Below, piece after piece: positions 30,349 to 47,466 of a stretch of DNA of 64,000 nt. Numbering within the stretch: position 1 is the first letter of the stretch; every line of letters starts with the position of its first letter. The translations under genes and the position numbers were made by a program. Source of the DNA: an uncultured Spirochaetales bacterium (lineage in GTDB: Bacteria; Spirochaetota; Spirochaetia; Sphaerochaetales; Sphaerochaetaceae); contig CASDPA010000011.1 in assembly GCA_949282255.1 (NCBI GenBank), positions 1 to 64,000 of the forward strand. The letters run 5' to 3'. Below the pieces are notes generated by a model. That model was not told where the DNA came from, ran no database searches, and saw only the letters and a program-made list of their open reading frames with translations.

Positions 30349-31188
30349 TCAACCCTTCACGGCACCGGCAAAACTTCCGGATTTCTGCATGAGCTGCATG
30401 ATAAGGTAAAGAATTATGGCCGGCACGATTACAAGCGTACATCCAGCAAGAATAACCTGCCACGGGGTTGCGAGGCCATCGCTGACAGGGAGCATCGAAA
30501 CCGATACCATCAACGTATACTTACTGTTCTTGTTCAAGAAAAGCAACGGCCAGAAATAGTCGTTCCATCTTGCAATCATTGTCAATGATGCCCAAGATGC
30601 CAAAGCAGGCTTGATGACAGGACAGATGACGCGGATAAAAATTCCGAATTCCTTGCATCCATCTATTCTTGCCGCCTCCACAAGCTCATCGGGAACATCA
30701 AGCATGTACTGGCGCAGATAAAAGATTCCTACTGCAGTCGCAATCCTTGGGATTATCAGGGACCACAGGCTGTTGATGAGATTGAGCTTTCTCATGATCA
30801 CAAAGAGCGGAATCGCACCTGCTTCCGCACTGATGGCCATTGTTGCGATCACAAAAGCGAAAAGCTTGTTTCTGCCGGGGAATCTGTATTTTGCAAATGC
30901 AAAACCAGCCAACGCACAGAAGAACAGCGTTGTGATGGTTCCTATAATGGTTGTGAAAGCGCTGTTGTACAGGTTCTGCCATACAGGGATGAGCTCGAAA
31001 AGCCTGGAGAAGTTGCCAAGTGTCGGATTTTCAACAGTAAGGGCATTGAAGCCGGATACCTTCTCTCCGACACTCTTTATGGAGATCATGCACATCCACA
31101 ATACCGGGAAAAGACACACCAGGACCACGATGATCATGAAGATGTTCACTGCAAGCGTCTGTCCAAAATCTTGTTTCTTGATTTTCAT
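30349..31188 (-). CDS. Carbohydrate ABC transporter permease (MalG/UgpE type)
   Basis: 279 residues, six predicted membrane helices. The EAA loop that contacts the ATPase is EAARIDGCKEFGIFIRVICPVIKPAL, near residue 178. It is the second permease of a family-1 importer with the gene upstream and the binding protein at 32132. The ATPase is not encoded here, as is usual where a shared MsmX-like ATPase serves several importers. I chose ATG 31188, after GGGGGTAGG. Substrate unknown. Confidence 0.92.
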   Translation of the reverse strand: MKIKKQDFGQTLAVNIFMIIVVLVCLFPVLWMCMISIKSVGEKVSGFNALTVENPTLGNFSRLFELIPVWQNLYNSAFTTIIGTITTLFFCALAGFAFAKYRFPGRNKLFAFVIATMAISAEAGAIPLFVIMRKLNLINSLWSLIIPRIATAVGIFYLRQYMLDVPDELVEAARIDGCKEFGIFIRVICPVIKPALASWASLTMIARWNDYFWPLLFLNKNSKYTLMVSVSMLPVSDGLATPWQVILAGCTLVIVPAIILYLIMQLMQKSGSFAGAVKG

Positions 31189-31198
31189 ACCTACCCCC

Positions 31199-32077
31199 TT
31201 ATACTTCGCCATCGTTCCTTCTCATCCTGTACTGAACCATTGAAATCACGAGGAGGACAAGGATAAGTACGACGCTGATGGAGGAGGCATAGCCGAGCTT
31301 GAACGTCTTGAATCCGTATTCGTATACCAGCTGGAAAAGCGAGGTGTTGCTGGATCCAGGACCGGAAAGGGTATAGGATTCGTTAAACATCTTCCAAATG
31401 TCGATGGTTATTGTAAGAGCACAGAAAAAGAGGATGTTCTTCAAAAGCGGGATTGTTATCAGCCTGAACTGCTGGAAAGGCGATGCGCCGTCAACGGTTG
31501 CCGCTTCATAGTATTCCTTGCTTATGTTGAGCAATCCGGAATAGATGATTATCGTAAACCAAGGTATGCTCCTCCAGATAAAGAGGATTATAACCGGTAT
31601 TTTTGCATACTTACTGCTTGATAACCAAGGTATCCTGCTTCCCCCCATTGCAACAATGAACTCATTGATCAGACCTGCGTTCTCATCAAAAAGCATCATG
31701 AAGATAAGGCCCATGGCAACACTTGCACATACATAAGGCAGGAAGGTTATCGTTTGAAAAGTCCTTTTGCATTTTATGTGGGAACTATTTATGCATGTGG
31801 CTATCATGAGAGCAAAAAACAAAATGCCCACGACAGCCCATATCCAATAAAAAACATTGTTCCAAAACGCATCCTTGAACATGTAATCCTGGAACATTAT
31901 CTTATAATTGTTCAGGCCGACCCATTTAGGAGTCTTCAAGCCATTCCATTCGGTGAAACTGATATATCCGGTAAAAACAACCGGAACCAACTGGAAGATG
32001 AAGAACAGGATAAAAAAGGGGCAGATGAAAATATACGGTGCCCTATACTTTTTCAAAGTTTTCACAAATTTCTTCAT
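31199..32077 (-). CDS. Carbohydrate ABC transporter permease (MalF/UgpA type)
   Basis: 292 residues, six predicted membrane helices. Family-typical parts are FFILFFIFQLVPVVFTGYISF at the first helix and the EAA loop YEAATVDGASPFQQFRLITIPLLK. It forms the translocation pore with the next gene. ATG 32077 has GGGAGG six bases upstream; the longer frame has no ribosome site. It is part of the operon that begins with the UroD-family gene. Confidence 0.92.
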   Translation of the reverse strand: MKKFVKTLKKYRAPYIFICPFFILFFIFQLVPVVFTGYISFTEWNGLKTPKWVGLNNYKIMFQDYMFKDAFWNNVFYWIWAVVGILFFALMIATCINSSHIKCKRTFQTITFLPYVCASVAMGLIFMMLFDENAGLINEFIVAMGGSRIPWLSSSKYAKIPVIILFIWRSIPWFTIIIYSGLLNISKEYYEAATVDGASPFQQFRLITIPLLKNILFFCALTITIDIWKMFNESYTLSGPGSSNTSLFQLVYEYGFKTFKLGYASSISVVLILVLLVISMVQYRMRRNDGEV

Positions 32078-32131
32078 GCATTGCCTCCCTCGTTCCAAGC
32101 TCCCATCCGAAGATGGGAGCAATAAAATCAA

Positions 32132-33481
32132 TCAGACATCAGCCTTGCCAATCTTAAGCTTAAGCTCCTTGTCCATATTTGCAATCGCCTGATCCATGGT
32201 CTGCTCGCCAGCAACATACTTCTCTATTTCTGCACTGATGATGAGATCGGCTTCTGCATCCTGCGGAGTAACGGTCATGTTCTTGGAAGGATTGTTCAAG
32301 CCATCGCTTTCAGCCTTCCTGAAGGACTGTCCGCCATAGAAATCGCTTGGTGCCTGCCAGAACGGATCTGCAAGGGTCTCCTTGCTGACCGGGTTGCTGT
32401 ATGCGCCATTGATGGCTTCCATTTCAGTTACCCAGGCATTGATCTCCTCGACATTGTTCTGGAAATCATACCAAAGATCCTCGATAAGACCGACATACTC
32501 GTTGCTGCCCGTATCAACAATACAGAAATATGTGCTGACAGGAGCTCCGCCGGTACCGATTTCCTCAAATACAGGAGCATTCATAACTCTCCAGTCACCA
32601 GCTGTGGCGGTAAGGTTCTTCCTGAGGAATTCATCCCAGAATGCACCGATGTAGAATGTGGCGATCTTGCCATCGTCGGTTGCCTCGTAGATCGGCTGCT
32701 GCATCATGTTGGTCTTATAAAGAAGTCCTTCGGAATAAAGGGTGTCAAGATATCCGAGAGCAAGCTTTGTTCCCTCATCGGATCCGATGACCACATTACC
32801 TTCCTCATCCCAGATCCTTGCTCCAGCCTGTGGCATGAGACCTCTTCTTCCCCAATATCTCCATGTGTAGCTTGTAGGATCGATCCAAGAAAGATAAACC
32901 TCTCCGTTGCTTCTCTCCTTCAAAAGCCTTCCAGCCTCGAGATATCCGTCAAATGTGCTCATCATTGCAGGATCGACATCATACTTCTCAAAAATTTCTG
33001 CATTATAGAACAGAACCTGCGGGCGGACTGCATCAGGAAGACCGTAAACCCTTCCATTGACAGTTGAGTCGTTGACAGCACCATCTACATACTTATCTGC
33101 CTGAGGAGCATAGTAATCGGTCAAGTCGAGCAACAGTCCGGCATTGGCAAGCTCGATGATGCCGACAGCATCAAGCATTATGACTTCAGGAAGAGAATCC
33201 TGATCCCCGGACATGGAATACATCGCTATCTTCTGCTGTCCGTCAGCCATCGTGGCAATCGTTTCGACAGAAAGCTTAACGCCGGAAGCGATATCCTGAT
33301 TCCTATCAAGGAATCCCTGATAATACATCTGCCTGTACTGAGGCTGTCCTGTAGACCAGACAACTAGATCTCCTGCAGGATAAGTGCCATCGTCGGCAGC
33401 CGCACTCTCAGTGGAACCGTTTGCAAAAATTGGAGCAAACGCCAGAAGGCAAACCAATAAAATTGTCAAAAACTTCTTCAT
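32132..33481 (-). CDS. Extracellular solute-binding protein, family 1
   Basis: 449 residues, periplasmic binding protein of a carbohydrate importer. A Sec signal (MKKFLTILLVCLLAFAPIFA) precedes NGSTES. Family features include WSTGQPQY, the hinge region GRVYGLPDAVRPQVLFYN and many tryptophans (SWIDPTSYTWRYWGRRG) that could stack on a sugar ring. The binding specificity cannot be read. The strongest Shine-Dalgarno (AAGGAG, 33509-33514) is 27 bases from the ATG with a hairpin between, and a GGAAAAAC lies closer. The genes before it are a cysteine-desulfidase-like protein and a methyltransferase, unusual company for a sugar importer. Confidence 0.92.
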   Translation of the reverse strand: MKKFLTILLVCLLAFAPIFANGSTESAAADDGTYPAGDLVVWSTGQPQYRQMYYQGFLDRNQDIASGVKLSVETIATMADGQQKIAMYSMSGDQDSLPEVIMLDAVGIIELANAGLLLDLTDYYAPQADKYVDGAVNDSTVNGRVYGLPDAVRPQVLFYNAEIFEKYDVDPAMMSTFDGYLEAGRLLKERSNGEVYLSWIDPTSYTWRYWGRRGLMPQAGARIWDEEGNVVIGSDEGTKLALGYLDTLYSEGLLYKTNMMQQPIYEATDDGKIATFYIGAFWDEFLRKNLTATAGDWRVMNAPVFEEIGTGGAPVSTYFCIVDTGSNEYVGLIEDLWYDFQNNVEEINAWVTEMEAINGAYSNPVSKETLADPFWQAPSDFYGGQSFRKAESDGLNNPSKNMTVTPQDAEADLIISAEIEKYVAGEQTMDQAIANMDKELKLKIGKADV

Positions 33482-33490
33482 AGTTTTTCC

Positions 33491-33505
33491 CGAGTAGAGG
33501 ACTCG
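33491..33505 (-). other. Hairpin between Shine-Dalgarno and start of the binding-protein gene
   Basis: CGAGT-CCTCT-ACTCG on the minus strand. AAGGAG (33514-33509) precedes it and nine bases separate it from the ATG. Folding would bring the ribosome site to normal spacing from the start codon. Confidence 0.4.
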
Positions 33506-33569
33506 ACTCTCCTTTTTAGTTTTTTTTCCCCTCTTCCACCCTCTATATGAAAAAAGGTTTTTACCTGTT

Positions 33570-34844
33570 TCAGTCCTTCAACATCTGTTTCAGGATCACG
33601 TTGTCCGTATCCTTCATTCCGACGCTGGCAAGGGTTCCGATTGTGGAGATCGTCTTTTCCACATCATCCTTCACAAGCCCCTCTCCGGAATGATAGCTCT
33701 TGTTGGACATGGCCATCTTATGGGCGATCATGGCGGCATTCACAGCAACGGCAATTTTTCCGGCACATGATGGTTTTGCGCCGTCACAGACCATTCCCGA
33801 AATGGTTGCCAAGGTGTTTACAACCGTCTCTTCTATCTGTTTTCTGTTACCACCGGCAAGCCATGTAACCGCAGCCCCTGCACCACAAGCGGCGCAGACG
33901 ACTCCGCAATAAGCGGAAAGAATTCCAATTTCTGTTTTCTGATGTATTGCAAGGAGGTTGCTCAACGCCAAGGCCCTGATAAGCTTTTCTTCCGGGACCT
34001 TATGCTCCCTGGCATACTCTATAACCGGAACCGATACTGTTATGCCCTGGTTGCCGCTTCCGCTGTTTATCACAACAGGCATGCTGCATCCGCTCATCCT
34101 GGCATCCGAACCTGCTGCGGCCATGGCCTCGGCACGTCCCATGAAACCATACATGTCTCCAGAAAGCACTGTTTTGCCAACAGATGCACCCCAATCGTTC
34201 TCCAGGCCCTCCTTACAGATACGTATATTGTTCTCAATCTGCACCGAAATAGTAGGCTCGATAAGACTGATATCGACATTTTCAGCAAAATCCACAATTC
34301 CGTCCACAGTCAAAAAACTTCTGTCGGTCAGAGATGCGCTTTCAAGTGCCGGTGCTTCATCCTTATGGAACAATACCTTGCCATCCTTGCTCATATCGAC
34401 GAAATTGGTGTGCTTGTTCAAAAGGCGTACATAAGCCTCATGTCCGCCAGCAAACATCCTAACCGCTATCTCCAGCTTGGCTTCGGTATCGATATGCTCA
34501 ACCTTGACAGCCTTCTTCTTCAGATAGTCTTTCACACGGATGACATCTTCTTCCGTCACCTTCGTAAGGACTTCCAAATCGGCATCGGCATTCCCTGCAA
34601 GCATCCCGACGGCAACAGCCGCCTCGATACCTTTAAGGCCTCCGCAATTCGGAACGACAACAGCCTTTACATTCTTTATTATGTTTCCGCTGCAGCCCAC
34701 CTCTATCCTTTCGGCCTCCGAGCCCAAAAGCTGCCGGCACTTGGCTCCGGCAAGGGCCAACGCGATAGGCTCCGTACATCCCAAGGCGGGAACAAGTTCT
34801 TCTTTCAGAATGCTTATATATTTTTCTTCGTTAACCATGGCCAA
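33570..34844 (-). CDS. L-cysteine desulfidase/serine dehydratase-like protein (UPF0597, CyuA family)
   Basis: 424 residues of the UPF0597 family, which includes iron-sulfur L-cysteine desulfidases that release sulfide, ammonia and pyruvate. Seen in the sequence: VPALGCTEPIALA with the first cluster cysteine (C23), GCSGNIIKNVKAVVVPNCGG, SGNQGITVSVPVI, then CGVVCAACGAG and CDGAKPSCAGK in the last third. Cytoplasmic. It is separated by seven bases from the UroD-family gene upstream. The substrate may differ from cysteine, because it is encoded between a methyltransferase-like protein and a sugar-type importer and not with a cysteine transporter. Confidence 0.88.
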   Translation of the reverse strand: MAMVNEEKYISILKEELVPALGCTEPIALALAGAKCRQLLGSEAERIEVGCSGNIIKNVKAVVVPNCGGLKGIEAAVAVGMLAGNADADLEVLTKVTEEDVIRVKDYLKKKAVKVEHIDTEAKLEIAVRMFAGGHEAYVRLLNKHTNFVDMSKDGKVLFHKDEAPALESASLTDRSFLTVDGIVDFAENVDISLIEPTISVQIENNIRICKEGLENDWGASVGKTVLSGDMYGFMGRAEAMAAAGSDARMSGCSMPVVINSGSGNQGITVSVPVIEYAREHKVPEEKLIRALALSNLLAIHQKTEIGILSAYCGVVCAACGAGAAVTWLAGGNRKQIEETVVNTLATISGMVCDGAKPSCAGKIAVAVNAAMIAHKMAMSNKSYHSGEGLVKDDVEKTISTIGTLASVGMKDTDNVILKQMLKD

Positions 34845-34851
34845 ACCTTTC

Positions 34852-35814
34852 TTAGCTTCTACAGGCTTCTACCGCCGTCCTCAGCTTATGCATATCCTGC
34901 TCTGTGGCAAGTGTGCAGTCGGCTCCAAGAATGAATCCTTTCTTTCCAAAGGAAGAGATAACAGAATGGACCTCGTTCCTGATCTCATCATCCGTTCCAT
35001 CCACAAGAACTCCGCTTCTGTTCTTAAGACCACCCATTATCGTGCATCCCTCAAAAAGCTTTCTTCCTTCTTCCAAGGAATAGGGAGCCTCATATACACC
35101 CCAGTTGACGACATCTGCATATTTTCCATATCCGGCATAACGATCCATATCAAGCCCATCTTTGCAGATGTGCAGGAAACAATACATGCCATTGTCTTTG
35201 ATGGCTTTCATAATCTGGAGATCGAAAGGCTTGAACCACTTATCGAACTCCTCTGCTGTCAGATACCTATGCTCAGCTCCGAGTGCAGCATAATAGATCG
35301 AATCGACTCCAGCCTCCTTATAGCCCTCCACCAATGAACACATGCCATCGGCAATACGCTTGAAGGCATCCAATGTTACAGCTTCATCGGCTCTGAGGCT
35401 GTCAAGCTGGATTTGTCTGGCCGTATCGTATTCCACACCGCTCTTTTCAATCGGATGGAGCGCAGAAGCACAGATTCCATGCAGTGTTCCCATTGTGAAG
35501 CCTTCCCCATCGCATGCATCCAGAATCTTTTTTGTGAAATCCACCTGCTCGCGGATGAAAGGAGTCTTGAGATCGAAAGATTTCACCTGCTTGTAGGCCT
35601 CAGGGAAATGCACACCCTTTCCAGGAGTCGGAACAAGGTTCTCATTCATTATTTTATAAATATCGGCTTCCGATTCCTTGAAAAAATCCACATGAGCCTT
35701 GACGCCTGCATCACCGCTGTTGCAGCAGGAAGGAAAATGAAGTGAGAATCCGCAAGGAACGTAGTCCACATCCATCTTATTTATCGCAGATACTACCCGT
35801 TCTTTTTTTGTCAT
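34852..35814 (-). CDS. Uroporphyrinogen decarboxylase-family protein, zinc methyltransferase type
   Basis: 320 residues. The fold is that of UroD, but the zinc-binding pattern of MtaA/CmuA-type methyltransferases is present: H215-x-C217 in FLHICKDG and C300 in LGADCTLATEQD. It is therefore more likely to move a methyl group (onto or from a corrinoid or thiol) than to make heme. No corrinoid protein is encoded beside it. I chose ATG 35814, five bases after GGAGG; the longer frame runs through the operator. It is the first gene of an operon with the CyuA-like protein and a sugar-type ABC importer. Confidence 0.82.
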   Translation of the reverse strand: MTKKERVVSAINKMDVDYVPCGFSLHFPSCCNSGDAGVKAHVDFFKESEADIYKIMNENLVPTPGKGVHFPEAYKQVKSFDLKTPFIREQVDFTKKILDACDGEGFTMGTLHGICASALHPIEKSGVEYDTARQIQLDSLRADEAVTLDAFKRIADGMCSLVEGYKEAGVDSIYYAALGAEHRYLTAEEFDKWFKPFDLQIMKAIKDNGMYCFLHICKDGLDMDRYAGYGKYADVVNWGVYEAPYSLEEGRKLFEGCTIMGGLKNRSGVLVDGTDDEIRNEVHSVISSFGKKGFILGADCTLATEQDMHKLRTAVEACRS

Positions 35815-35849
35815 GACAAACCTCCAAAATAATGTCCTAAGAACCACAT

Positions 35850-35886
35850 CTGATAATATCAGTGGTATCATCAATAGTATTATCAG
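35850..35886 (-). promoter_or_regulatory. Operator-like inverted repeats before the UroD-family operon
   Basis: CTGATAATA (35850-35858) and TATTATCAG (35878-35886) are perfect inverted copies. CTGAT-AAT-ATCAG lies inside the first. They begin at the -10 and cover the predicted transcript start, the position of a repressor site. Confidence 0.5.
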
Positions 35887-35913
35887 TATTTTTCGTCTTT
35901 GAGGATTTGTCAA
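35885..35913 (-). promoter_or_regulatory. Promoter of the UroD-CyuA-ABC operon
   Basis: On the minus strand TTGACA (35913-35908), 17 bp, AATACT (35890-35885). Its -35 shares its bases with the -35 (TTGTCA) of a promoter in the opposite direction. Confidence 0.55.
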
Positions 35914-35935
35914 CTTTTTTTTACTTATTTATATG
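35907..35935 (+). promoter_or_regulatory. Divergent promoter of the small transcription unit
   Basis: TTGTCA (35907-35912), 17 bp, TATATG (35930-35935). Six bases follow to the ATG at 35942, the spacing of a leaderless start. Confidence 0.45.
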
Positions 35936-35941
35936 TTTTGT

Positions 35942-36115
35942 ATGATTATGGATAAAACTCCCCAAACTCTTCATACAAAACACACACCAATATATTGTAA
36001 TATAAGTGCAAACAGGATAGCAAGCTTATATTACCCCTCCTGAATCTTATTGCCTATAAGGCGTAATACAGGACGACCACGATGGATGAGACCCAGCCGT
36101 CGTGGTCATTTTTTT
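35942..36115 (+). ncRNA. Candidate structured small RNA, with a 33-codon ORF at its 5' end
   Basis: Promoter, about 174 transcribed bases and an intrinsic terminator form a complete plus-strand unit inside a region coded entirely on the minus strand. A 10-bp perfect stem GTAATATAAG (35997-36006) / CTTATATTAC (36025-36034) encloses an 18-base loop. It is followed by TCCTG/CAGGA around an inner TTA..GCC/GGC..TAA stem and by the terminator. The first 102 bases also contain an ORF (35942-36043, starting MIMDKTPQT) without Shine-Dalgarno. I match it to no known RNA family. It could be a regulatory RNA, a small protein gene or both. Confidence 0.4.
36075..36115 (+). terminator. Intrinsic terminator on the plus strand
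   Basis: GACCACGA (36075-36082) and TCGTGGTC (36100-36107) form a strong stem followed by A and seven T. No annotated plus-strand gene lies upstream, so it marks the small unit that starts near 35942. Confidence 0.8.
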
Positions 36116-36121
36116 ATTTTA

Positions 36122-36158: not shown

Positions 36159-37679
36159 CTATTTCTTTTCGTCGTAAAGCTTCTTTCCCCTGACAGCCTC
36201 TTTCATTGGCAATCCTGTGTCATAATCCCATTGCCGAGGCTCATATTCCTCGTTCTCCCGCTGTCTTGTGCATCCGGAATTATTCCATTTCGGCACCAGA
36301 TCCTTGCGCCATGGGCGGGCACACCACTGATAGCCCCTGAATGGATCCCGTGTTTCGTCCATATGAAGGATGAGCGCATCATGCAAACGGTTCCTGGTAT
36401 CCGCATATCTGTTGTCTTCTATGAGATTCACTGTTTCCGACGGATCGGTTTGAATATCATACAGCTCATCGCTATCCATGAGATTGATGGAAAGCTTATA
36501 TCTTCCATCGGTCACAGCCCTCATCAGCTGCAGGCCTCCGAACCCGTCATGATCAACCTCATACCTGGTGAACTCCGCAAAAACATAGCTGTTCAAAGTC
36601 TTGTTGGGATCTTTTATCTGTCCAAGCATGGATTTTCCTTCAAACAGCTTCGGTACAGGAATGCCGAAATAATCCAAAACAGTCGGAGCAATGTCTATAT
36701 GGGATGCCGGATGCCTCACCACGGCCCTTGCTCCTGTTTTCCCATCGCGGATAAGCAATGGGATATTTGATATCTCCTTGTAGAACGCCGCATTCTTACC
36801 CTGCAGGCGGTGGGCCCCAAGCATGTCCCCATGGTCGGAGGTGAATATAACAAGAGCATCAGGGCAAAGGGCATCCACCTTCTCCATGAAACGTCCGATC
36901 TCATAATCGGCAAAACTGTTCGCCCCTAAAAACAGGGAAAGCATATCGGAGCTCTTATGCAGGTTTTCCGGATCCTCACTGATCGCATCCCCTGCCCAAA
37001 GCCGCTGCATGAAGGGCTTGTTTTCAAGATTGTCGTGGAAGACAGGATCGTCAGAGAAGCTGAACCCGTCATACATATGATTGAACGGAGAAGGGCATAC
37101 ACAGGGACCATGAGGCTCATCAAGGCTCAAGGTGAAAAAGAAATCTTCCCCATAATGCCGATCTATGAATTCTCTTGCGCGGTCGGCACACCTATGTGCA
37201 TAACACATATCCTCCGTCCAGGAAGGGTCATAGGCGGTCGTGGATTGTCTTGAGCGCATCCTGTCCTCATCACAAAGTTCCTCCAGATAGCGGTGCATGT
37301 CATACCAGTATTCGTCATCCCATCCGTCCGGGCATCGGCCTAAGCCGAAATAATCGCCTCCGTCCAGGTGCCATTTACCGACATAAGCGGTCCTGATGCC
37401 ATGATCGCGGAGCCTTTGCCCAATGGTTTTGACATTATCCCCGAACGGCACACAATTGGTGAAAACCCCGTTAGAATGCGGAAAAGTTCCGCTGAAAATG
37501 GCGGATCTGGCCGGACCGCAGACAGGTTGGCATGTATAGGCATTCTCATATCTGAGCCCCTGGGAAGCCAAACGATCCAAATTAGGCGTCTTCATCCTGT
37601 CATCCCCATAACAGCCCAACATGTCTTTTCTTGTGGTATCCGTCATAATGAGAATGAACTGTCTCTTTTTTTCCATCAT
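36159..37679 (-). CDS. Sulfatase, Cys-type (S1 family)
   Basis: 506 residues, hydrolyses sulfate esters. The maturation motif C-x-P-x-R is CGPAR with C54, to be converted to formylglycine by a maturase that is not encoded here. Metal-binding residues begin with D14 in LIMTDTTRKD, and the second metal site is in VIFTSDHGDMLGAH. The C-terminal subdomain carries RAVTDGRYKLSINL and PSETVNL. No signal peptide, so it should act in the cytoplasm on imported oligosaccharides. The start overlaps the previous sulfatase stop as ATGA, with AAGGAGGA upstream. It is the last gene of the operon. Which sulfate position it cuts cannot be read from the sequence. Confidence 0.93.
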   Translation of the reverse strand: MMEKKRQFILIMTDTTRKDMLGCYGDDRMKTPNLDRLASQGLRYENAYTCQPVCGPARSAIFSGTFPHSNGVFTNCVPFGDNVKTIGQRLRDHGIRTAYVGKWHLDGGDYFGLGRCPDGWDDEYWYDMHRYLEELCDEDRMRSRQSTTAYDPSWTEDMCYAHRCADRAREFIDRHYGEDFFFTLSLDEPHGPCVCPSPFNHMYDGFSFSDDPVFHDNLENKPFMQRLWAGDAISEDPENLHKSSDMLSLFLGANSFADYEIGRFMEKVDALCPDALVIFTSDHGDMLGAHRLQGKNAAFYKEISNIPLLIRDGKTGARAVVRHPASHIDIAPTVLDYFGIPVPKLFEGKSMLGQIKDPNKTLNSYVFAEFTRYEVDHDGFGGLQLMRAVTDGRYKLSINLMDSDELYDIQTDPSETVNLIEDNRYADTRNRLHDALILHMDETRDPFRGYQWCARPWRKDLVPKWNNSGCTRQRENEEYEPRQWDYDTGLPMKEAVRGKKLYDEKK

Positions 37680-39082
37680 TGCTCCTCCTTATCCTCAGGT
37701 GCCGTTATTCCTCTGTGACATTGATAACCGATCTTATGACTGCGCCACTTCTGCGAAGCCTTCCACTGCAGGGACAAAAATGGATCATCCGTCCTGGCAA
37801 GATGCTTTTTAAAAATGGAGCGCATCCTCTCAAGATCTGCCGAATACCTGTCAATGCCTGCAAGGTTTTTCATCTCATAAGGATCATTCTCCAAATCGTA
37901 AAGCTCCTCACCTTCCCCCTCCAGATAACGCATGTATTTCCAATGGCCGCTTCTGATCATACGGCCAGGGGAAATGGTGTAGCCCCACTCTGTGAACCAC
38001 TCGCTTTCCACATATTCCCGCTCAGGAACATCCCCTGAAGAGAAAATCGACGAAATATCCATTCCATCCAAGCCTTCCGGAGCTGGAATCGAGGAATATG
38101 CACAGAGTGTCGGGAAAAGATCCAGAAGGGATACAAGCCCCTTGACCCTAATCCCTTTCCTACCTACCCCGCAGCCGGAGAAAATAAGGGGAACGCGCAC
38201 AACCTCCTCATAAAGGGTGACCTGCTTCGTCACAGATTGCCTGCTTGTGATGTTATCCCCATGATCGGAAAAAAGAACGATGAGCGTATCATCCCTCCCT
38301 CCGCTTTTATCCAAAGCTTCAAGCACCCTGCCTATATAGGAATCGGCAACGCCGAGATAATACGAATAAGCGGCAAGATAATGCCTGAAATTCATATCCG
38401 TCCATCCGACAGTCTGTGCCTGCCTGACATGTGAACAACAGAGATATTGGACAGGAACCGGTCTGTTGGCAATATCATCAAAATGATAATTAGGCGGTAA
38501 TTCGGGCAAAGGTCCCGAAAACGGCACATCGTCATGCACCCCGCGGTTTTTACCGATCCAGCCACAGATATTATGGGGATTGATCAGATCGACAACCATC
38601 AAAAGAGGCTTTTCAAATGAGTACGATGAAAGATAATCGACACTCCTTTCAACCGTATATGCATCCGCATAGGTATCCATATTGAATGGAAAAGCCGGAT
38701 TCTCATCGGCAATCCATTTTTCTTTCTCCTCATCGCACCAAAAACCTCGGAGTGCACCTCCATCGTGCTTTTTGCCAAAGTGTACGGTTTGATAGCCATG
38801 TTCGGCAAACACGGATCCCAGTGTCGGCACATTCTCACCGATTTCCGTTATTTTCCACTTGCGGCCGTTCGACCACACCCTGTTGTGATGTGAGAATTTC
38901 CCAGTCCAGAACGAAGCCCTGGATGGCTGGCATAGCGGATAGGGACAATAGCATTCATCCACATCCACCCCGTCTTGTGCCAGTTTCGTGATGTTCGGAG
39001 CAGAGGCAAAACCACCATGTATATCCAAGGCACGCCAGGCAAGCTGATCCAAAACGAATATGAGTATGTTCTTCTTTTCCAT
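37676..39082 (-). CDS. Sulfatase, Cys-type (S1 family)
   Basis: 468 residues. The motif CQPSR holds the future formylglycine, C51. Metal ligands are in FVLDQLA (D12, Q13) and VLFSDHGDNITSR. The C-terminal region has YMRYLEGEGEELYDLENDPYEMKNL, common to many glycan sulfatases. No signal peptide. I chose ATG 39082, the first Met directly before the conserved strand; it follows the GH88 stop by five bases. It differs strongly from the two other sulfatases of the operon, so the three probably cut different sulfate positions. Confidence 0.92.
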   Translation of the reverse strand: MEKKNILIFVLDQLAWRALDIHGGFASAPNITKLAQDGVDVDECYCPYPLCQPSRASFWTGKFSHHNRVWSNGRKWKITEIGENVPTLGSVFAEHGYQTVHFGKKHDGGALRGFWCDEEKEKWIADENPAFPFNMDTYADAYTVERSVDYLSSYSFEKPLLMVVDLINPHNICGWIGKNRGVHDDVPFSGPLPELPPNYHFDDIANRPVPVQYLCCSHVRQAQTVGWTDMNFRHYLAAYSYYLGVADSYIGRVLEALDKSGGRDDTLIVLFSDHGDNITSRQSVTKQVTLYEEVVRVPLIFSGCGVGRKGIRVKGLVSLLDLFPTLCAYSSIPAPEGLDGMDISSIFSSGDVPEREYVESEWFTEWGYTISPGRMIRSGHWKYMRYLEGEGEELYDLENDPYEMKNLAGIDRYSADLERMRSIFKKHLARTDDPFLSLQWKASQKWRSHKIGYQCHRGITAPEDKEEQ

Positions 39083-39087
39083 TGCAA

Positions 39088-40254
39088 TCACCAATACGGA
39101 TCCCAATCCTTCTTAAGACGGACAAGGGCCTCCAGATAATAATAATCCCCCCAGATGTTGCATTCATCCACCCCGCGGTTGCGGCAGGTGTTCCATTGGC
39201 TCTTTCTTGCATAAGTTCCATGAAGCAGAAGCCCATCGGATACAAGAGGATCGATCACTGCACAGCGTTCATAAAGCTGCCGGAAAAGCTTTCCTGCGGT
39301 TTGCCTCAGCCAGACAGCCTTTTCCCCGCTTGTCCATCTGGAAGCTTCAAGCATGCCGCAGATTGTGATTGCAAGAGCAGAGGAATCTCGCGGCTCAAGG
39401 CTGGGATTGGTGAAATCAAAATCCCAATATGGAATCACATCATCGGGAAGATGTGAAAGGAAATAACCGGTTGTGCGGTTAAAAACATCCATGGACTCAT
39501 CGTTCTTAAGATACCTGTAAGCCAAGGCGGAACCATATACGCCCCACGCCTGACCTCTGGCCCAGGCAGAACCATCCCTGTTTCCCTGCGCTGTGACACC
39601 TTTAAGCGGTTTTCCGGTAGCTTTATCGAAATAATAGGTATGGTATGTTGAATCATCGCTTCTGAGAACAAACTTCAATGCTGTCTCAAGATGTTTTTTT
39701 GCGATATCTGCATAATGATCATCCCCAGTCTCCTCCGAGGACCAGAAAAGAAGCGGAAGATTAAGCAGGCAATCTATTATCAGACGATAATTGTCCTCGG
39801 CACCCAACGGTCCCCAGGCTTGTATGAATCCTCCCTTTTCCTGGAATCTGGAAACGAGGTTGTCAGCAGCCAGCAGAGCAGCCTTCCGACCGGTTTCATT
39901 TCCTGTAAGCTTATAAGCCGCAACACAAGAAGGTGAATAAAGAAAGCCCATGTCATGATGTTCAACATCAATTTTTTCGATTATCCTCTTATAAAACGAA
40001 TCCACCTGGCATTCAGCTGCTTTGCGGAATTTCTCATCACCGCCCAATTCATAACACAGCCATAACTGGCCGGTCCAAAACCCTGTGGTCCATTCGACAT
40101 TCTCACTTTGAGGATAAAATCCGTTTTCAGCATGGGAGTACTTGAAAAGATGGGTGAACCTGTCAAGACAGGAACTTGTTTGTGCAAGCACATATTTCTC
40201 AGCATCTCTTAATACTGAAGAATCGAGATCGGCAAGTTTTTCCAAATCCAGCAT
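39088..40254 (-). CDS. Unsaturated glucuronyl hydrolase, GH88 family
   Basis: 388 residues, an (alpha/alpha)6 barrel that removes the 4,5-unsaturated uronic acid left at the non-reducing end by polysaccharide lyases. The two catalytic aspartates expected in GH88 fit HHDMGFLYSPS (near residue 99) and RLIIDCLLNLPLLFW (near residue 161). WARGQAWGVYGSALAYRYL is also a family hallmark. No signal peptide, hence cytoplasmic. GGAGG lies four bases before the ATG. Together with the lyase at 47459 and the sulfatases it defines the pathway: lyase cut, desulfation, release of the unsaturated uronate. Confidence 0.93.
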   Translation of the reverse strand: MLDLEKLADLDSSVLRDAEKYVLAQTSSCLDRFTHLFKYSHAENGFYPQSENVEWTTGFWTGQLWLCYELGGDEKFRKAAECQVDSFYKRIIEKIDVEHHDMGFLYSPSCVAAYKLTGNETGRKAALLAADNLVSRFQEKGGFIQAWGPLGAEDNYRLIIDCLLNLPLLFWSSEETGDDHYADIAKKHLETALKFVLRSDDSTYHTYYFDKATGKPLKGVTAQGNRDGSAWARGQAWGVYGSALAYRYLKNDESMDVFNRTTGYFLSHLPDDVIPYWDFDFTNPSLEPRDSSALAITICGMLEASRWTSGEKAVWLRQTAGKLFRQLYERCAVIDPLVSDGLLLHGTYARKSQWNTCRNRGVDECNIWGDYYYLEALVRLKKDWDPYW

Positions 40255-40262
40255 AAATCCTC

Positions 40263-41636
40263 CTATAAAGCGAACGAATCGTTGTTTTCAGCCATATGTT
40301 TCAACAAAAGCTTATCATACTTTCTACACACCTCATCATCCTTTTTGAGCAGTTTAGGTGCCATCTGATAAGGGTCCTCCAAATTGTCATAAAGGTATCT
40401 CTTCTGTTCTTCTTTTGGATCGGTTCCGTTATCGACGACATATGTGTATCTTTTATCGCGCACACCTCTCCAGCCAAAAGCCCTGTTGTTAAGCCCCAAA
40501 CTCTCATAGCGTTTTACTAAATCCGGCATTCCAGGAACCATGCACAAGAAACAATCGTCACGCATCACTGCATTCGAATTTCCCCTGAGGACGTCGGCAT
40601 GGCTTATCCCATCGACAGTTGCAGGTATTTCAATACCAAGCAGGTCAAGGATCGTCGGCATATGGTCCGCACTCACCAAAAGTGTATCGCTCTTTCCCTT
40701 TCTTACCCCACAGCCGTGGATTATAAGCGGAATTCTTATGGATTCCTCATACCATACATTCTTTCCATAAAGCCCATGGGACCCCATGCAATCACCATGA
40801 TCGGCAGAAAGGATTATCAGGGTATCATCATAAAGACCTTTGTTCTTAAGATAGGAAATTATACGTCCGAATTGTTCATCCAAACCGCTGACAGCGGCAA
40901 AATACTGACGCCATTTCAAACGGAAGGATGGATCATTTGCCATTTCAGGTGGAACATTGGGCCTGAAAACCTGGCAGTCTTCCGGATAGAGGGAAAGATA
41001 CTTCTCAGGCACCTGGTCATATGGTGGATGGGGAGGATTCCATGAAAGGAATGCACAAAACGGAGAATCGCTTCTGCTCTCATCAAGATGCGATAAAAGA
41101 ACATCGGTCTCATGTTCCACAGACCATTTACCAGGCTTGATCTGAGTTTCGCAATCCTCCCAATAATGGGGATCGAGATGATCATCCATGGCGCCGTAGG
41201 AATGCCAGAAACCAAAGTGGTGCCTCCTTTCCCCTGCGGGGGTATAGGCATCCCAGTTCTTTGCTCCGGACACGGGGGCGGGATTGAAATTAAGCTCGCT
41301 TGCATCCAAATGCCATTTTCCTATATATGATGTATCATAACCGTTTTCATAAAGGACATCGCTTATGAGCTTCTCCTGCGGGAAAAGCATCAATATGTCC
41401 TTCAAGCCTATCTTGCAGTTTGTCCACATCCTACAGTTAAGCGGATGCTTTCCTGTCAGCAGAGCAGCCCTATGGGGAGAGCAGAGCGGATAAGTGCTGA
41501 TGGCGTTATCACATATTAGGCTTTCTGCAGCAAATTCATCCATATTCGGAGTTTTTACCGGATCTTCATGAGAACAGCCGACAGCGTGGTATCTCCATTG
41601 GTCGGCAAAAATGTACAAAAGGTTTTTTCTCTTCAT
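40263..41636 (-). CDS. Sulfatase, Cys-type (S1 family)
   Basis: 457 residues. The maturation motif is CSPHR with C52. The first metal ligands are in IFADQWR (D12, Q13) and the later site in LIILSADHGDCMGSH. The start of the mature fold coincides with the start codon, so there is no export signal. It is the first enzyme gene after the importer. A GC-rich UUCG hairpin separates it from the binding-protein gene. Confidence 0.93.
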   Translation of the reverse strand: MKRKNLLYIFADQWRYHAVGCSHEDPVKTPNMDEFAAESLICDNAISTYPLCSPHRAALLTGKHPLNCRMWTNCKIGLKDILMLFPQEKLISDVLYENGYDTSYIGKWHLDASELNFNPAPVSGAKNWDAYTPAGERRHHFGFWHSYGAMDDHLDPHYWEDCETQIKPGKWSVEHETDVLLSHLDESRSDSPFCAFLSWNPPHPPYDQVPEKYLSLYPEDCQVFRPNVPPEMANDPSFRLKWRQYFAAVSGLDEQFGRIISYLKNKGLYDDTLIILSADHGDCMGSHGLYGKNVWYEESIRIPLIIHGCGVRKGKSDTLLVSADHMPTILDLLGIEIPATVDGISHADVLRGNSNAVMRDDCFLCMVPGMPDLVKRYESLGLNNRAFGWRGVRDKRYTYVVDNGTDPKEEQKRYLYDNLEDPYQMAPKLLKKDDEVCRKYDKLLLKHMAENNDSFAL

Positions 41637-41651
41637 ATAACACCTGAAACA

Positions 41652-41667
41652 GGGGGCCGAAGCCCCC
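41652..41667 (-). other. Intercistronic GC-rich hairpin with UUCG loop
   Basis: GGGGGC-TTCG-GCCCCC on the minus strand, between the binding-protein stop and the sulfatase start. There is no T-run after it on that strand. Such hairpins often protect the upstream mRNA of a binding-protein gene and lower expression downstream. Confidence 0.6.
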
Positions 41668-41674
41668 TTTTTGA

Positions 41675-43285
41675 TTATTTTCCGCTTTCGATATAGTAGT
41701 CGAATGCTCTCTGGTTGATCTCGATGGCCTCTTCAATACCGCGGTTCTTAAGTTCCTGAATGAACTTATCATAATCGGCTTCAAAATCGCTTGTACCGAG
41801 AATCCAAGACTGGAACTTCTCCTCAACATACGGTGTTATCGAGCTCATTATCCTCTGATACCTGGTCTCGTCCTCGGGGAAATATTTCATATCGAGCTTT
41901 CCGTCCGCATATGGGGGCACGTCTTCCAGATACCATTCCGGATGCGACTCGTAAAGGTCGGATGCAGCCTTTCCGTATTCATTCATGCTCGCGATCTCGT
42001 AGCCGCCGTCCTGGTTCATACCGACACGGTAGATAGCGCCTATGCTCCTTAAATACCCGGTTACAGTCTGATCTCCACTGAGGATCTCATCATAGAACTG
42101 CTTGTCCCCGTTCTCATCGATATAGTAGGACTCGCCCTCGATTCCCCAGTTCATCAATGCAGAACCTTCTTCGGTGAAAAGGAAGTCGAAGAACTTGATT
42201 ACGGACACAGGATCCTTGCAGGTGCTTGAGATGCCCCAGCCTACTCCAGGGAAGCGCTCCGTCCTCTCCTTCACGACACCGTTCTGGTCCGCAGGAGGCG
42301 CCATGACGACAAATTCGAAATCAGGAATCTCACTGTTGAGCTTTCCATTGTAGTCAGATGCGCTGACCCAATCGTGAGTCATTCCACCGAGGTTAGCAGC
42401 AAGAAGGGTATCCCTTCCCTTCGGTCCACGAGTAAAGATCTCAGGATCGATGAGTCCTTCCTTATACCACTTGATCATGTTTTTTACACCAACCTTGAAG
42501 TTTTCTTCCATTGGCTCGTATTCCACAACACCGTCACGCACATAGAATTCGAGGGAAGTATCCCAGAGATAGAGGTATTCATCTGGCATCTTCCATCCTG
42601 CACGGTCAAATACAGGGATTTCATCCTTGATTCCGTTGCCGTTCGGATCCTCGTTCCTGAATGCGGTCAAGACCGTATAAAGCTCATCGACGGTTGTCGG
42701 AATCTCAAGACCAAGCTTGTCGAGCCAGTCTTTTCTGATCCACCAGTATTCTGCTGCCTTGAGCTGCTGGTTCTTCGGGATGAAGTAGATATTGCCATCG
42801 GTGCTTGTTGCGTACTGCTTGAACTTCGGATCCTCGTCCATCATCTTCTTGATGTTCGGGGCATACTGATCGATCAGATCGTTAAGTGCGATAAGGCCCC
42901 CATCCCTTCCAAGCTTCTCGAGATCGGATGTGCTGACATATCCGATGACATCTGCAAGATTGCCGGAAGAGAGCATCAGATTGAAAGCCTCGCTCTCATT
43001 TGAGTTGGACTGGCTTATCACGCTGGAGAAGCTGATGTTAGTAAGCTTTGTGAGCTCCTGCCATACTCTCCAGTTCGGATCGAACGGCATGTTGTTGAAA
43101 TTCAAAAAGATCGTGAACGTGGTCGGCTTGTCCACAATAGGCAGATGGAATGTCCCATCAGCGTTCAATGTGGGAGTGGCTTCTGCAACAGCTGCCCCAG
43201 ATGATTTGGATTCACTTCCGCCCATAGCCATAACCGGCATCAGAACCAAAAGGCATAACAATGCCACTAATAAGGTTTTCTTCAT
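41675..43285 (-). CDS. Oligosaccharide-binding protein, LplA/AlgQ-like
   Basis: 536 residues, the large type of family-1 binding protein that works with LplB/YtcP permeases and takes up oligosaccharides such as alginate or glycosaminoglycan fragments. The signal peptide ends near MPVMAMGGSESKSS. A calcium-site-like loop DPNGNGIKDE lies near residue 185, as in AlgQ-type proteins. Many aromatic residues (EYWWIRKDWLDKLG, DEYLYLWDTSLEFYV) could bind sugar rings. ATG 43285 has GGAGGATATTTT upstream. It is encoded with its two permeases and the sulfatases, so its ligand is probably a sulfated, lyase-generated oligosaccharide. Confidence 0.92.
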   Translation of the reverse strand: MKKTLLVALLCLLVLMPVMAMGGSESKSSGAAVAEATPTLNADGTFHLPIVDKPTTFTIFLNFNNMPFDPNWRVWQELTKLTNISFSSVISQSNSNESEAFNLMLSSGNLADVIGYVSTSDLEKLGRDGGLIALNDLIDQYAPNIKKMMDEDPKFKQYATSTDGNIYFIPKNQQLKAAEYWWIRKDWLDKLGLEIPTTVDELYTVLTAFRNEDPNGNGIKDEIPVFDRAGWKMPDEYLYLWDTSLEFYVRDGVVEYEPMEENFKVGVKNMIKWYKEGLIDPEIFTRGPKGRDTLLAANLGGMTHDWVSASDYNGKLNSEIPDFEFVVMAPPADQNGVVKERTERFPGVGWGISSTCKDPVSVIKFFDFLFTEEGSALMNWGIEGESYYIDENGDKQFYDEILSGDQTVTGYLRSIGAIYRVGMNQDGGYEIASMNEYGKAASDLYESHPEWYLEDVPPYADGKLDMKYFPEDETRYQRIMSSITPYVEEKFQSWILGTSDFEADYDKFIQELKNRGIEEAIEINQRAFDYYIESGK

Positions 43286-43301
43286 AAAATATCCTCCTTT
43301 A

Positions 43302-44222
43302 TCAACCTTTATTTGCACCAATGGTCAGTCCGCTCTTGAAGTACTTCTGTACAAACGGATAAGCGATGACCATCGGAATGATCGCTATTATTATCAATGC
43401 ATAAATGACAGTAGTCTGGCTTGTCAGCGATGCGCTGGTGATTATTGCAGACTCCATCTCATTTGCGGTCCTGTCAACCAAAAGCTTTTTCATAAGCACC
43501 TGCAGAGGCACCTTGCTGTCATCAGTTAAAAGGTTCATTGGCCAGAAATAGCCATTCCATCTGTTTACCGCGTAAAACAATCCGACAGTTGCAAGAGCAG
43601 GCTTGGAAAGTGGCAGATATATCTGCGCAAAAATCCTGAAATCATTCGCACCATCGATGAATGCCGCCTCCTCCAACGATCCGGGAACCTGCTCGAAGAA
43701 GCTCTTCAGGATTATCATGTTGTATGTGCTGATTGCAAAACCGAACAGGATCGCAGTCCTGGTATTGATCAATCCATAATCCCTGAACGTCATATAAAGG
43801 GGAATTACTCCGGCACTGAACCACATGGTGAACACTGTAAAGAGGGTGAACGCCTTGCGTCCCAAAAGACGCTGCTTGCTCAATGCATAAGCCATGGTGG
43901 ATGAGAAAACCATGTTCACCAGTACTCCGAAAAGGGTGTAGAAAATGCTGTTGCCGTAGCTCGACCAGAGATACGGGGTCTGGAAGGCTTCCCTATAGCT
44001 CTGCCAGGTAGGCAGGACAGCTTTGAACATCACCTGTCCGTTCTCCACATAAAGCGGTCTGCTTATGGAGGCGATGAACACATAATATATCGGATAAAGA
44101 CATACGGCGATGAGAAGAAGGCCGATCAGGTTGAGTACGATATCAAAAATCTTCTCCCCTGTTCCCTCGATTCTGGCAGAAGAACCCACACTGCCTTTTA
44201 TCTTGTTTGAAAAAACTTTCAT
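43302..44222 (-). CDS. ABC transporter permease, YtcP/LplC type
   Basis: 306 residues, six predicted membrane helices. The family segments are GLLLIAVCLYPIYYVFIASISRP at the start and the EAA loop EEAAFIDGANDFRIFAQIYLPLSKPALA. It is the second permease of the oligosaccharide importer. ATG 44222 has GGAGG six bases upstream. No ATPase is encoded in the locus. Confidence 0.92.
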   Translation of the reverse strand: MKVFSNKIKGSVGSSARIEGTGEKIFDIVLNLIGLLLIAVCLYPIYYVFIASISRPLYVENGQVMFKAVLPTWQSYREAFQTPYLWSSYGNSIFYTLFGVLVNMVFSSTMAYALSKQRLLGRKAFTLFTVFTMWFSAGVIPLYMTFRDYGLINTRTAILFGFAISTYNMIILKSFFEQVPGSLEEAAFIDGANDFRIFAQIYLPLSKPALATVGLFYAVNRWNGYFWPMNLLTDDSKVPLQVLMKKLLVDRTANEMESAIITSASLTSQTTVIYALIIIAIIPMVIAYPFVQKYFKSGLTIGANKG

Positions 44223-44233
44223 TCCACACCTCC

Positions 44234-45169
44234 TCACCACAACGCCGTCTCGGTCAGACGCTTGCTGAATTTATTTGCGAACACAACCAGTATCAGTGCG
44301 ATGACAGCCTCAAAAAGTCCTGCGGCGGTCGCAATACCGTAATCGCCATTCTGGATTCCAACACGGAAGCTGTATGTGCTGATCACATCCGCTGTCGAAT
44401 AGGTGGACGGCTGATAAAGGAGAAGGATTGCCTCATACCCTACTTTGACCATCTTTCCGATATTCATGATGAACATCGTGACAACTGTCGGGATTATTCC
44501 AGGAATCGTTATATGCCTTATCCTCTGCCATCTTCCAGCGCCATCGACGATGGCCGCCTCATACAGCTGAGGGTCGATTCCCATCAATGCTGCAATATAT
44601 ACGATTGCGTTGAAGCCCGCCGTCTGCCAAAGTGTCATCAAGGTGTATACAGGACGGAAATACTGAGGATAAACCATGAAGTATTTCGCCTCCCCTCCCA
44701 AGCGCTCAATGAACTTGTTTATGATACCCGTGCTTGGAGAAAGGAAATTCACAACCATGCCGCAGACAACAACGGTGGAAATGAAATATGGCAGGAAAGA
44801 GGAGGTCTGTACCGTCTTCTTTATCACCTTGCTCTTCATTTCCGTAATCGCGATCGCCAAAATGATCGGGAACGGGAAGCAGATGGCCATCTGCCACAGT
44901 GCAATGAAAAGCGTATTTTTCACAGTACGGATAAAATCCGGTCCGAGCATATAGGTCTTGAAATTATCCAGACCGACGAATGTACTTCCTGCAAATCCTC
45001 TGAAAATATTGTAATCATAGAATGCCATCCTAAGTCCGATCATCGGGCGATAGCAGAACATTAGATACCAAATCAATCCAGGGAGCAGCAAAATAAGAAG
45101 TTGCCAACATTTCAGGAAACGTTTCTTCAACGGTGCGTTTACAGAAACCTTTTTAAGTTTCTTTTCCAT
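44234..45169 (-). CDS. ABC transporter permease, LplB type
   Basis: 311 residues, six predicted membrane helices. LLPGLIWYLMFCYRPMIGLRMAFYDYNIFRG and the EAA loop YEAAIVDGAGRWQRIRHITIPGI are typical of LplB. It is the first gene of the operon that runs to the terminator at 36122. ATG 45169 has GGAGG seven bases upstream. The divergent AraC regulator starts 152 bp away, so both promoters must lie in that gap. Confidence 0.92.
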   Translation of the reverse strand: MEKKLKKVSVNAPLKKRFLKCWQLLILLLPGLIWYLMFCYRPMIGLRMAFYDYNIFRGFAGSTFVGLDNFKTYMLGPDFIRTVKNTLFIALWQMAICFPFPIILAIAITEMKSKVIKKTVQTSSFLPYFISTVVVCGMVVNFLSPSTGIINKFIERLGGEAKYFMVYPQYFRPVYTLMTLWQTAGFNAIVYIAALMGIDPQLYEAAIVDGAGRWQRIRHITIPGIIPTVVTMFIMNIGKMVKVGYEAILLLYQPSTYSTADVISTYSFRVGIQNGDYGIATAAGLFEAVIALILVVFANKFSKRLTETALW

Positions 45170-45321
45170 CCAGAATCCTCCTTTTGAGTCCAAAATCAGT
45201 CTATATGCTCATTTTTTCAGCTGTAAATCATCCATTTTCCGTTCATCAGCAAAAAGCCGGAAATCAGGAAAAATAACAATTGTCGGATTTTTTTCAAATA
45301 GGTGTGATAAAATCCAAAAAT

Positions 45322-47466
45322 ATGGCAAGAGGGAAAAACATATATTTAAAGAAGCTTTCCATCACTTTCGCAGCCGCGACCATTGTGATATCAGCCATTA
45401 TGCTTCTATCTGCAATGCTGTTGATAAGGAACCTGTCGGTATCCCGCGACCATGCAGTCATATCAAGCGCCGATACACAGTCTTTCAACGCATCACTGAC
45501 ATTTGAGTTCATCGGGTCGGCCATCGACAGGCTATCGACCAGCCGGCAACTGCAGGACTGGCTGGAGTCCAGGCAAAACAGTCCGAAATACTATGAATCA
45601 TCCCTTTTATTATTCAAGCAGATGAAAGCGGAAAGCCCGTCGATCGACGATCTTGTTTATGAGATATCCATAACAAGATCGGATGAAAATTCTTTCGTCA
45701 TAACTCCGGAAGGGACGGTTTCAAAGGAGCTTTTCATAAAACAGAGCGGAATCGGGGATCCACAATTTGCGGCTTTCCAATCCGGCATATACCCGGTTTA
45801 TGATGAAAGTGGTGCATTTTCCGATTTCGTAATGATTCTGAACAGATCAATAAGCAGCAGCTCCTTCATCATATTCGCACGCTTTCCTGCCTTATCCGTA
45901 TATTCGAATACGGATTATCTTGACATGGCCATAGTCGACGGAAATCGTAATGTTATATTGTCAAACTCTGAAAAACTGACAGAAATGATTTCAGCATCAC
46001 CATGGCTTATCGAAGCTTCCGGCACACACAAGGAAAGCGGGACCAATTTCTCAATAACGCAGTTTCCCGATATCAATATCACATTGATCTACGGTTTTGA
46101 TTCAAGATACACGAAGATTTCCGTCATGATCATGGTGTTGCTGGCAATAGCTATAACGTCCCTGTCTGTGGCAAGCTACCATATGAAAAACAATCTATAC
46201 AAGCCGGTCAAGGAGGCTGTGAAACGTCTTAACACCGATAATGCACCGGTGACTGACGAATTCAACCTCATCCTGGACAATTGCAGGAAGATCGAACAGC
46301 TCAACATCGATTTGGAAAAAGCCAGAAACGAACAGAGGATGCTTTCCGAGCAGCAGAAATACAGGGCGTTCATAAGAGGTGTACCGGCAGAGACGGCCGA
46401 GAACGACAGCTGTTCCTTTTTCTCCCTCTGCTGTGCAAGCCTGGCTGAAAACGATGTGAACACCGACACACTGTTTGCAAAAATGGATATGATCTGCAAG
46501 GAACAGCCACATCTGCATACCATACGGACCGCACCCGGAGAATGTGTGATAATACAAAAAGCGGATGCCCAGGACCAAGCTTCCACCATGCTTGTCGAAA
46601 TCATCAAAAAATCCGTCGGTCTTTTTGAAAACACGGCAGGAATATGTTTTGCCATAGCCGATACGGTCAAAGGATACACAAACATTCCCTTGGCCTATAA
46701 GGAATCACACAAGATCCTCGGATACAGATATAAGATAAGAAACAAGATCATACTTACAACAAATGATATGAATGACGGCAAAACCCTCATGTACTACCCT
46801 CTTTCCGAAGAAGGCAGACTCATGAACGCCCTGCTTTCAAACGATATGGATGCACTCGGGATATTCGATTCCATCATGGAAAACAATATCGGCCCTGATA
46901 AGAATCTTCCAAGGGAGGAACTTGAACGCCTCACCTTCTCTGTAACCTCCAGTGCAATGAGGTTCTTCCAAGAGCTTAAGGAGGATCCGGAGGAGCTCAT
47001 AGGAGAAAGGATAGATTGGGGCAACCTTTATGAATGCACGGATTATCAGGCCACACTAAAAAAAATAAGGGATATTCTTGAGAAGGCATGCATTGCCGGC
47101 AAGATGAAGGAAGAAGAGGATTATGCTAACATCATAAACAAGATGAAGGATTATATCGCCAATCATTTCAGCGAGAATATCATGCTCATAGATTTGTCCA
47201 ATGAATTCAACCTCACCCCAAAATATTGCAGCCAGATATTCAAGAAACTGAGCAACGACACATTCAAGAACTATCTCAACCAATACAGGATAGATGAGGC
47301 TCGGAAAAAGATACAAGACAACCCTGATATAAAGATTTCCGAACTCTCCAACGAGGTCGGCTTCACCAGCGCGACCACATTCATACGCGTATTTTCAAAA
47401 TATGTCGGTACCACACCGAAAAGCTTTGCTGATATCATTAGAAAAAGAGGAAACTACAATGAATAA
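45322..47466 (+). CDS. Membrane-bound AraC-family regulator
   Basis: 714 residues. Two membrane helices (about 12-38 and 262-284) flank an outside sensor domain; a linker and a C-terminal double helix-turn-helix AraC domain follow (about 600-710: LSNEFNLTPKYCSQIFKKL and ISELSNEVGFTSATTFIRVFSKYVGTTPKSF). Regulators of this shape (YesS/LplR-like) sense an extracellular sugar or the loaded binding protein and switch on the neighbouring LplABC-type importer. It is divergent from that importer and overlaps the heparinase-like gene. I chose ATG 45322; a TTG at 45280 would start earlier. No clear Shine-Dalgarno is visible. Confidence 0.88.
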   Translation: MARGKNIYLKKLSITFAAATIVISAIMLLSAMLLIRNLSVSRDHAVISSADTQSFNASLTFEFIGSAIDRLSTSRQLQDWLESRQNSPKYYESSLLLFKQMKAESPSIDDLVYEISITRSDENSFVITPEGTVSKELFIKQSGIGDPQFAAFQSGIYPVYDESGAFSDFVMILNRSISSSSFIIFARFPALSVYSNTDYLDMAIVDGNRNVILSNSEKLTEMISASPWLIEASGTHKESGTNFSITQFPDINITLIYGFDSRYTKISVMIMVLLAIAITSLSVASYHMKNNLYKPVKEAVKRLNTDNAPVTDEFNLILDNCRKIEQLNIDLEKARNEQRMLSEQQKYRAFIRGVPAETAENDSCSFFSLCCASLAENDVNTDTLFAKMDMICKEQPHLHTIRTAPGECVIIQKADAQDQASTMLVEIIKKSVGLFENTAGICFAIADTVKGYTNIPLAYKESHKILGYRYKIRNKIILTTNDMNDGKTLMYYPLSEEGRLMNALLSNDMDALGIFDSIMENNIGPDKNLPREELERLTFSVTSSAMRFFQELKEDPEELIGERIDWGNLYECTDYQATLKKIRDILEKACIAGKMKEEEDYANIINKMKDYIANHFSENIMLIDLSNEFNLTPKYCSQIFKKLSNDTFKNYLNQYRIDEARKKIQDNPDIKISELSNEVGFTSATTFIRVFSKYVGTTPKSFADIIRKRGNYNE

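Follow-up and report, generated by a model that had tools for sequence, protein, structure and literature searches.

The predicted small RNA gene lies on the plus strand of the window (the whole stretch of 64,000 nucleotides that was analysed). G000 denotes the genome of the window, and G003 and G050 are two congeneric genomes. The features of the locus are listed below.

35885-35913, minus strand: promoter-like site of the UroD operon, TTGACA-17-AATACT; the same boxes are present in G003
35907-35935, plus strand: candidate RNA promoter, TTGTCA-17-TATATG; in G003, TTGTCA is kept and GATAAA stands at equal spacing
35942-36043, plus strand: proposed 33-codon open reading frame, judged to be no gene (startless in G003, frame broken in G050)
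35957-36118, plus strand: small RNA gene (extent of homology); G003 and G050 are the only genomes with blastn and covariance matches
35968-35987, plus strand: unstructured, conserved 5' segment TCTTCATAnAAAACACACA; the three genomes agree in 18 of 19 bases
35997-36034, plus strand: hairpin 1, a perfect 10-bp stem with a purine-rich loop; predicted fold and three-genome comparison
36006-36049, plus strand: invariant 44-base core, identical in G000, G003 and G050
36032-36043, plus strand: predicted seed UACCCCUCCUGA, complementary to the nagE ribosome-binding site
36038-36073, plus strand: hairpin 2, a UCCUG/CAGGA outer stem and an inner stem; predicted fold and three-genome comparison
36075-36115, plus strand: Rho-independent terminator with a T7 tail; stem kept in the three genomes
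36159-37679, minus strand: sulfatase (Pfam PF00884, E 1.1e-55), its 3' end facing the RNA in all three genomes

To the right of the RNA, the minus strand carries three sulfatases, a GH88-family glycosidase and an ABC transporter. Beyond this sulfatase cluster, on the plus strand, are an AraC-type regulator and a protein weakly matching the heparin-sulfate lyase HepC. Window positions 36159-49396 are probably a glycosaminoglycan degradation locus, presumably with a heparan-type substrate. The left flank encodes a UroD/MtaA-like methyltransferase, a serine-dehydratase-like protein, an ABC sugar transporter and a rhamnulokinase-like kinase. In G050 no UroD operon adjoins the RNA, which is located upstream of the kinase. 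Compared with window positions 30349-35820, the G050 locus (L035) is missing the serine-dehydratase-like, UroD-like and ABC transporter genes between kinase and sulfatase, a multi-gene insertion or loss between G050 and the window that ends at the RNA. The UroD leader (window 35821-35890, minus strand) contains a repeated or palindromic stretch, GATAATACTATTGATGATACCACTGATATTATC, largely kept in G003, which has the appearance of an operator for a regulator, adjacent to the promoter that the UroD operon shares with the RNA.

The boxes of the RNA promoter are TTGTCA (35907-35912) and TATATG (35930-35935), separated by a 17-base spacer. They match the consensus weakly, and the promoter scanner did not list the site because the second hexamer lacks its final T. 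The unit described by the sequence-only reading, TTGTCA-17-TATATG followed by a terminator with T7, is present, as is the sharing of -35 boxes that it reported: the minus-strand promoter of the UroD operon (35913-35885) and the plus-strand -35 of the RNA overlap by 5 bases. This common -35 is kept in G003 only; beside the RNA of G050 there is no recognisable promoter, no TTGTCA box and nothing comparable to TTGTCA-17-TATATG. Competition between the two promoters, which had also been suggested, is possible in G000 and G003 but cannot be essential, as G050 has neither the box nor an adjoining UroD operon. As expected of a trans-encoded base-pairing sRNA, the element is a separate intergenic unit with its own terminator and a conserved structure, and the plus-strand RNA is predicted to be about 160-175 bases long.

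The RNA is present in three genomes, with 92% identity to G000 in G003 and 80% in G050. Searches of 48 genomes of its genus, 139 genomes from the order and a sample of 395 from the class found none beyond these three; the wider search left only weak matches (E 0.6-0.7) and one opposite-strand match at the same place. Viral contigs and plasmids gave a 24-base chance match at most. In 3/3 genomes the same sulfatase gene has the RNA next to its 3' end, directed towards it. At third codon positions this sulfatase of G000 shows 63% identity with G003 and 51% with G050; the longest stretch of it shared exactly by G000 and G050 measures 21 bases, as against the 44-base core of the RNA. The parts of G000 and G050 that were sampled have 70 exact matches of 40 bases or more in common outside ORFs, many of them tRNAs or short genes, and other non-coding identical stretches equal or exceed the RNA core in length. 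The core is therefore exceptional for its locus and not genome-wide. No family of Rfam 15 reached its gathering score, the best permissive matches being at chance level, which agrees with the earlier statement that the RNA matches no known family. Since G000, G003 and G050 are close relatives, the RNA and its nagE match (see below) may represent one evolutionary event.

The predicted fold has an energy of -43.6 kcal/mol, compared with -27.8 (sd 4.0) for dinucleotide shuffles (z -3.9), and 0/200 shuffles were as good. Hairpin 1, reported as a perfect 10-bp hairpin from the sequence alone, was confirmed; its arms GTAATATAAG and CTTATATTAC are at 35997-36006 and 36025-36034, and the prediction adds three inward pairs. 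Across the three genomes it shows one A-U to G-U change and is otherwise invariant. The linker between the hairpins is UUACCCCUCCUGAAUC; the seed UACCCCUCCUGA is located in this linker and partly inside both hairpin stems. The motif ACAGGA occurs twice, in the loop of hairpin 1 (window 36009-36018) and in the 3' arm of hairpin 2 (36068-36073), and both copies are able to pair with UCCUG at 36038-36042, a possible pseudoknot or switch between two pairings. In the terminator stem two A-U pairs have become G-C with both sides changed. Over the three sequences 98.3% of the pair cells are kept, versus 33-48% in slid controls, and 49/500 shuffles did as well in a control of pair conservation that is weak with only three rows. 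Of six one-sided pair changes, five are wobble-compatible on the plus strand only (A-U/G-U type), where the minus strand would have an A-C mismatch. A T-rich tail follows the terminator stem on the plus strand in 3/3 genomes. From the counts of one-sided changes, together with the two compensatory pairs and the T-tail, we infer that the RNA is encoded on the plus strand. Conservation and structure make an undescribed family of small plus-strand RNA a well-supported assignment.

The sequence-only reading had also proposed a leaderless 33-codon ORF, and a covariance search of relatives for conservation of the stems or of this ORF. That search gave matches in G003 and G050, in which the stems are kept and the ORF is not. 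The frame exists in the window as one of many short frames, but its exact leaderless start is a matter of start-codon choice: the mechanical ORF begins at an ATG at 35933, 9 bases before 35942, and has 36 codons. The frame is judged non-coding because G003 has no start codon, the G050 frame contains one extra base and the core does not vary at any codon position. An RNA with a second role as the message for the 33-residue peptide, comparable to SgrS/SgrT or VcdRP, would account for the open frame, but on the evidence of conservation the same two losses refute it, save for a peptide restricted to G000, and it is hardly credible. A signal read from the opposite strand is very improbable as well. 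On that strand the core reads GATTCAGGAGGGGTAA, a good Shine-Dalgarno sequence followed by a TTG frame of 17-25 codons, so that the element could be a leader with the ribosome-binding site AGGAGGGG and a short peptide, or a 5' regulatory element. The TTG frame is broken in G050, however, with identity of the core at all codon positions; the one-sided pair changes favour the plus strand by 5 to 1, the T-tail is on the plus strand, and the downstream gene in G050 is a different one. Action in cis on the sulfatase/UroD locus, with the transcript or its promoter hindering either the sulfatase transcript that runs towards it or the divergent UroD promoter, is improbable but less so. It would fit the position of the RNA in 3/3 genomes and the overlap with the UroD -35 in G000. 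Against it, five other genomes whose sulfatase orthologs are 74-79% identical have no such RNA in the 400 bases 3' of the gene and no covariance match, the core is unchanged in G050 where the UroD operon does not adjoin, and the RNA in the window stops short of the sulfatase stop codon. The element is thus very probably a real, non-coding, lineage-specific small RNA.

A genome-wide pattern search with the complement of the linker found the site AATCAGGAGGGGTATTTCTATG in 3/3 genomes, before the gene for the N-acetylglucosamine PTS IIBC component (nagE), whose protein passes the corresponding NCBIfam cut-off (604 vs 553). Upstream of nagE and in the same direction lie an EIIA-like gene, an EI-like gene and an HPr-like frame (the pts operon), named from sequence inspection and not from a family search. 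Over 12 contiguous bases the seed is complementary to UCAGGAGGGGUA, the Shine-Dalgarno region that precedes the nagE AUG by a few bases, a conserved complementarity to the ribosome-binding site of a distant mRNA as in trans-encoded base-pairing sRNAs. The exact 12-base complement TCAGGAGGGGTA occurs twice in each of G000, G003 and G050, once opposite the seed of the RNA and once at the nagE ribosome-binding site, and 14 times in all in the remaining 45 genomes of the genus. By gapless-helix score (-27.6 kcal/mol) nagE ranks first of 1,394 sampled genes in G000 and of 1,062 in G050; the next best of 567 ortholog pairs reaches -18.4 kcal/mol. With the opening costs of both partners included, nagE is again first in both genomes (-9.1 and -9.2, next pair -4.7). 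Its conserved score was reached by 0/100 shuffled seeds, and by 1/100 when CCUCC was kept. In the same operon ptsI has an 8-base seed match conserved in G000 and G050. Over its first 20 codons, nagE is 100% identical at third positions between G000 and G050, versus 25-85% in other stretches. This identity (L133, G000:C7:20001-40000, positions 7050-7110) hints at a constrained translation initiation region.

A simple ORF caller supplied the start regions for the ranking, which took in about 1.5 of the 2.35 Mb of G000 and 1.2 of the 2.1 Mb of G050. Since a pattern match in all three genomes first drew attention to nagE, whose contig region was then deliberately included, the whole-genome search with TCAGGAGGGGTA is a less biased test than the ranking. 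In whole-molecule co-folding nagE is 105th of 1,394, and target ranking with an unconstrained 47-base duplex was too noisy for use. The seed is partly paired within the RNA, with an opening cost of 8.5 kcal/mol, and matches to ribosome-binding sites are easily found because its CCUCC resembles an anti-Shine-Dalgarno sequence. The nagE leader of G048, a genome in which no RNA was detected, has AGGAGGGGTATTTC, with 10/12 bases of the site, and that of G021, also without the RNA, has the related site GGAGGGTATTTC. Most of the match is therefore older than the RNA or independent of it, and the G048 site means that the match is no proof of co-evolution. Within the window the best local helix is -18.4 kcal/mol, with a gene at 17458; the sulfatases, GH88 and the UroD operon gave only ordinary CCUCC matches, -15 or weaker.

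A trans-acting sRNA with an anti-Shine-Dalgarno-like seed might instead act mainly on other or many mRNAs, or bind a protein, with nagE not its main target. This is rather unlikely, though of the alternatives it deserves the most weight. Similar accessibility-corrected energies are found for other genes in single genomes (C12:16602 in G000, -9.1), and the hairpin 1 loop and 5' segment are as conserved as the seed and therefore indicate some function beyond pairing with nagE. The matches other than nagE are not conserved between G000 and G050, however, and nagE alone stands far out among the 567 ortholog pairs. A CsrA sponge, considered for the AGGA in the hairpin loop, was rejected, as no CsrA was found: G000, G003 and G050 gave no Pfam match for CsrA, nor for Hfq (PF17209), with positive controls in other bacteria. 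On balance, the uniqueness of the match and its first rank tilt slightly towards nagE as the main target.

In enteric bacteria, SgrS represses the PTS transporter gene ptsG by pairing at its ribosome-binding site; it is controlled by SgrR, depends on Hfq and encodes the SgrT peptide. The spirochaete RNA resembles SgrS in its predicted target, a PTS sugar transporter at the ribosome-binding site, but no sequence relation to it was found (no Rfam match). SgrS has been contrasted with VcdR (VcdRP) of Vibrio cholerae, an Hfq-dependent and peptide-encoding RNA that pairs by a C-run seed with nagE and other pts mRNAs (PMC8672173). The likeness to VcdR consists of a CCCC-containing seed against nagE and 8 bases against ptsI, and is one of complementarity only. 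Unlike VcdR, the RNA has no conserved ORF that could correspond to VcdP, no Rfam match and, among the genomes searched, no homolog in other genera, and its host is a spirochaete in which Hfq was not found. It is not filed as VcdRP because the peptide and Hfq features are lacking and no Rfam family matches. GibS of Bacteroides thetaiotaomicron (about 145 bases) is tied to N-acetylglucosamine, a glycosaminoglycan constituent, and pairs near start codons in a species without obvious Hfq or ProQ (PMC7366714). It is likewise a gut-bacterial sRNA of N-acetylglucosamine/glycosaminoglycan physiology, but GibS has the seed in a 5' region that is unstructured and acts on other metabolic genes; the spirochaete RNA is not filed as a GibS member since no Rfam family matches. 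Small RNAs have also been mapped in the spirochaete Borrelia burgdorferi (PMC10319736, PMC5216591), but Borrelia belongs to another family, and no homolog of the present RNA was found outside the genus of the window in the genomes searched.

The RNA would thus act in trans as a non-coding molecule with two hairpins between an unstructured 5' part and a Rho-independent terminator. If it is transcribed and pairs in the cell as we infer, the seed (36032-36043) would cover the Shine-Dalgarno region of nagE and block the ribosome, and less N-acetylglucosamine would be taken up by the PTS. The resulting down-regulation of nagE would probably be linked to the use of sulphated glycosaminoglycans by the adjoining locus. 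A trans-acting repressor of nagE, analogous to VcdR, is a role that we favour by a little. The complete proposal is held more tentatively, with a probability just short of even: an undescribed sRNA family in a few species of one spirochaete genus, which needs neither Hfq nor CsrA to cover the nagE ribosome-binding site and in this way couples a glycosaminoglycan locus to the N-acetylglucosamine PTS, parallel to VcdR and of independent origin. If true, control of PTS sugar-uptake genes by C-run sRNAs would have arisen independently in a gut spirochaete seemingly without Hfq and CsrA. The exact 12-base match would provide a defined RNA-target pair for the study of base-pairing regulation without the usual chaperones, and the glycan-degradation locus would carry its own sRNA to adjust the uptake of a sugar that it possibly releases.
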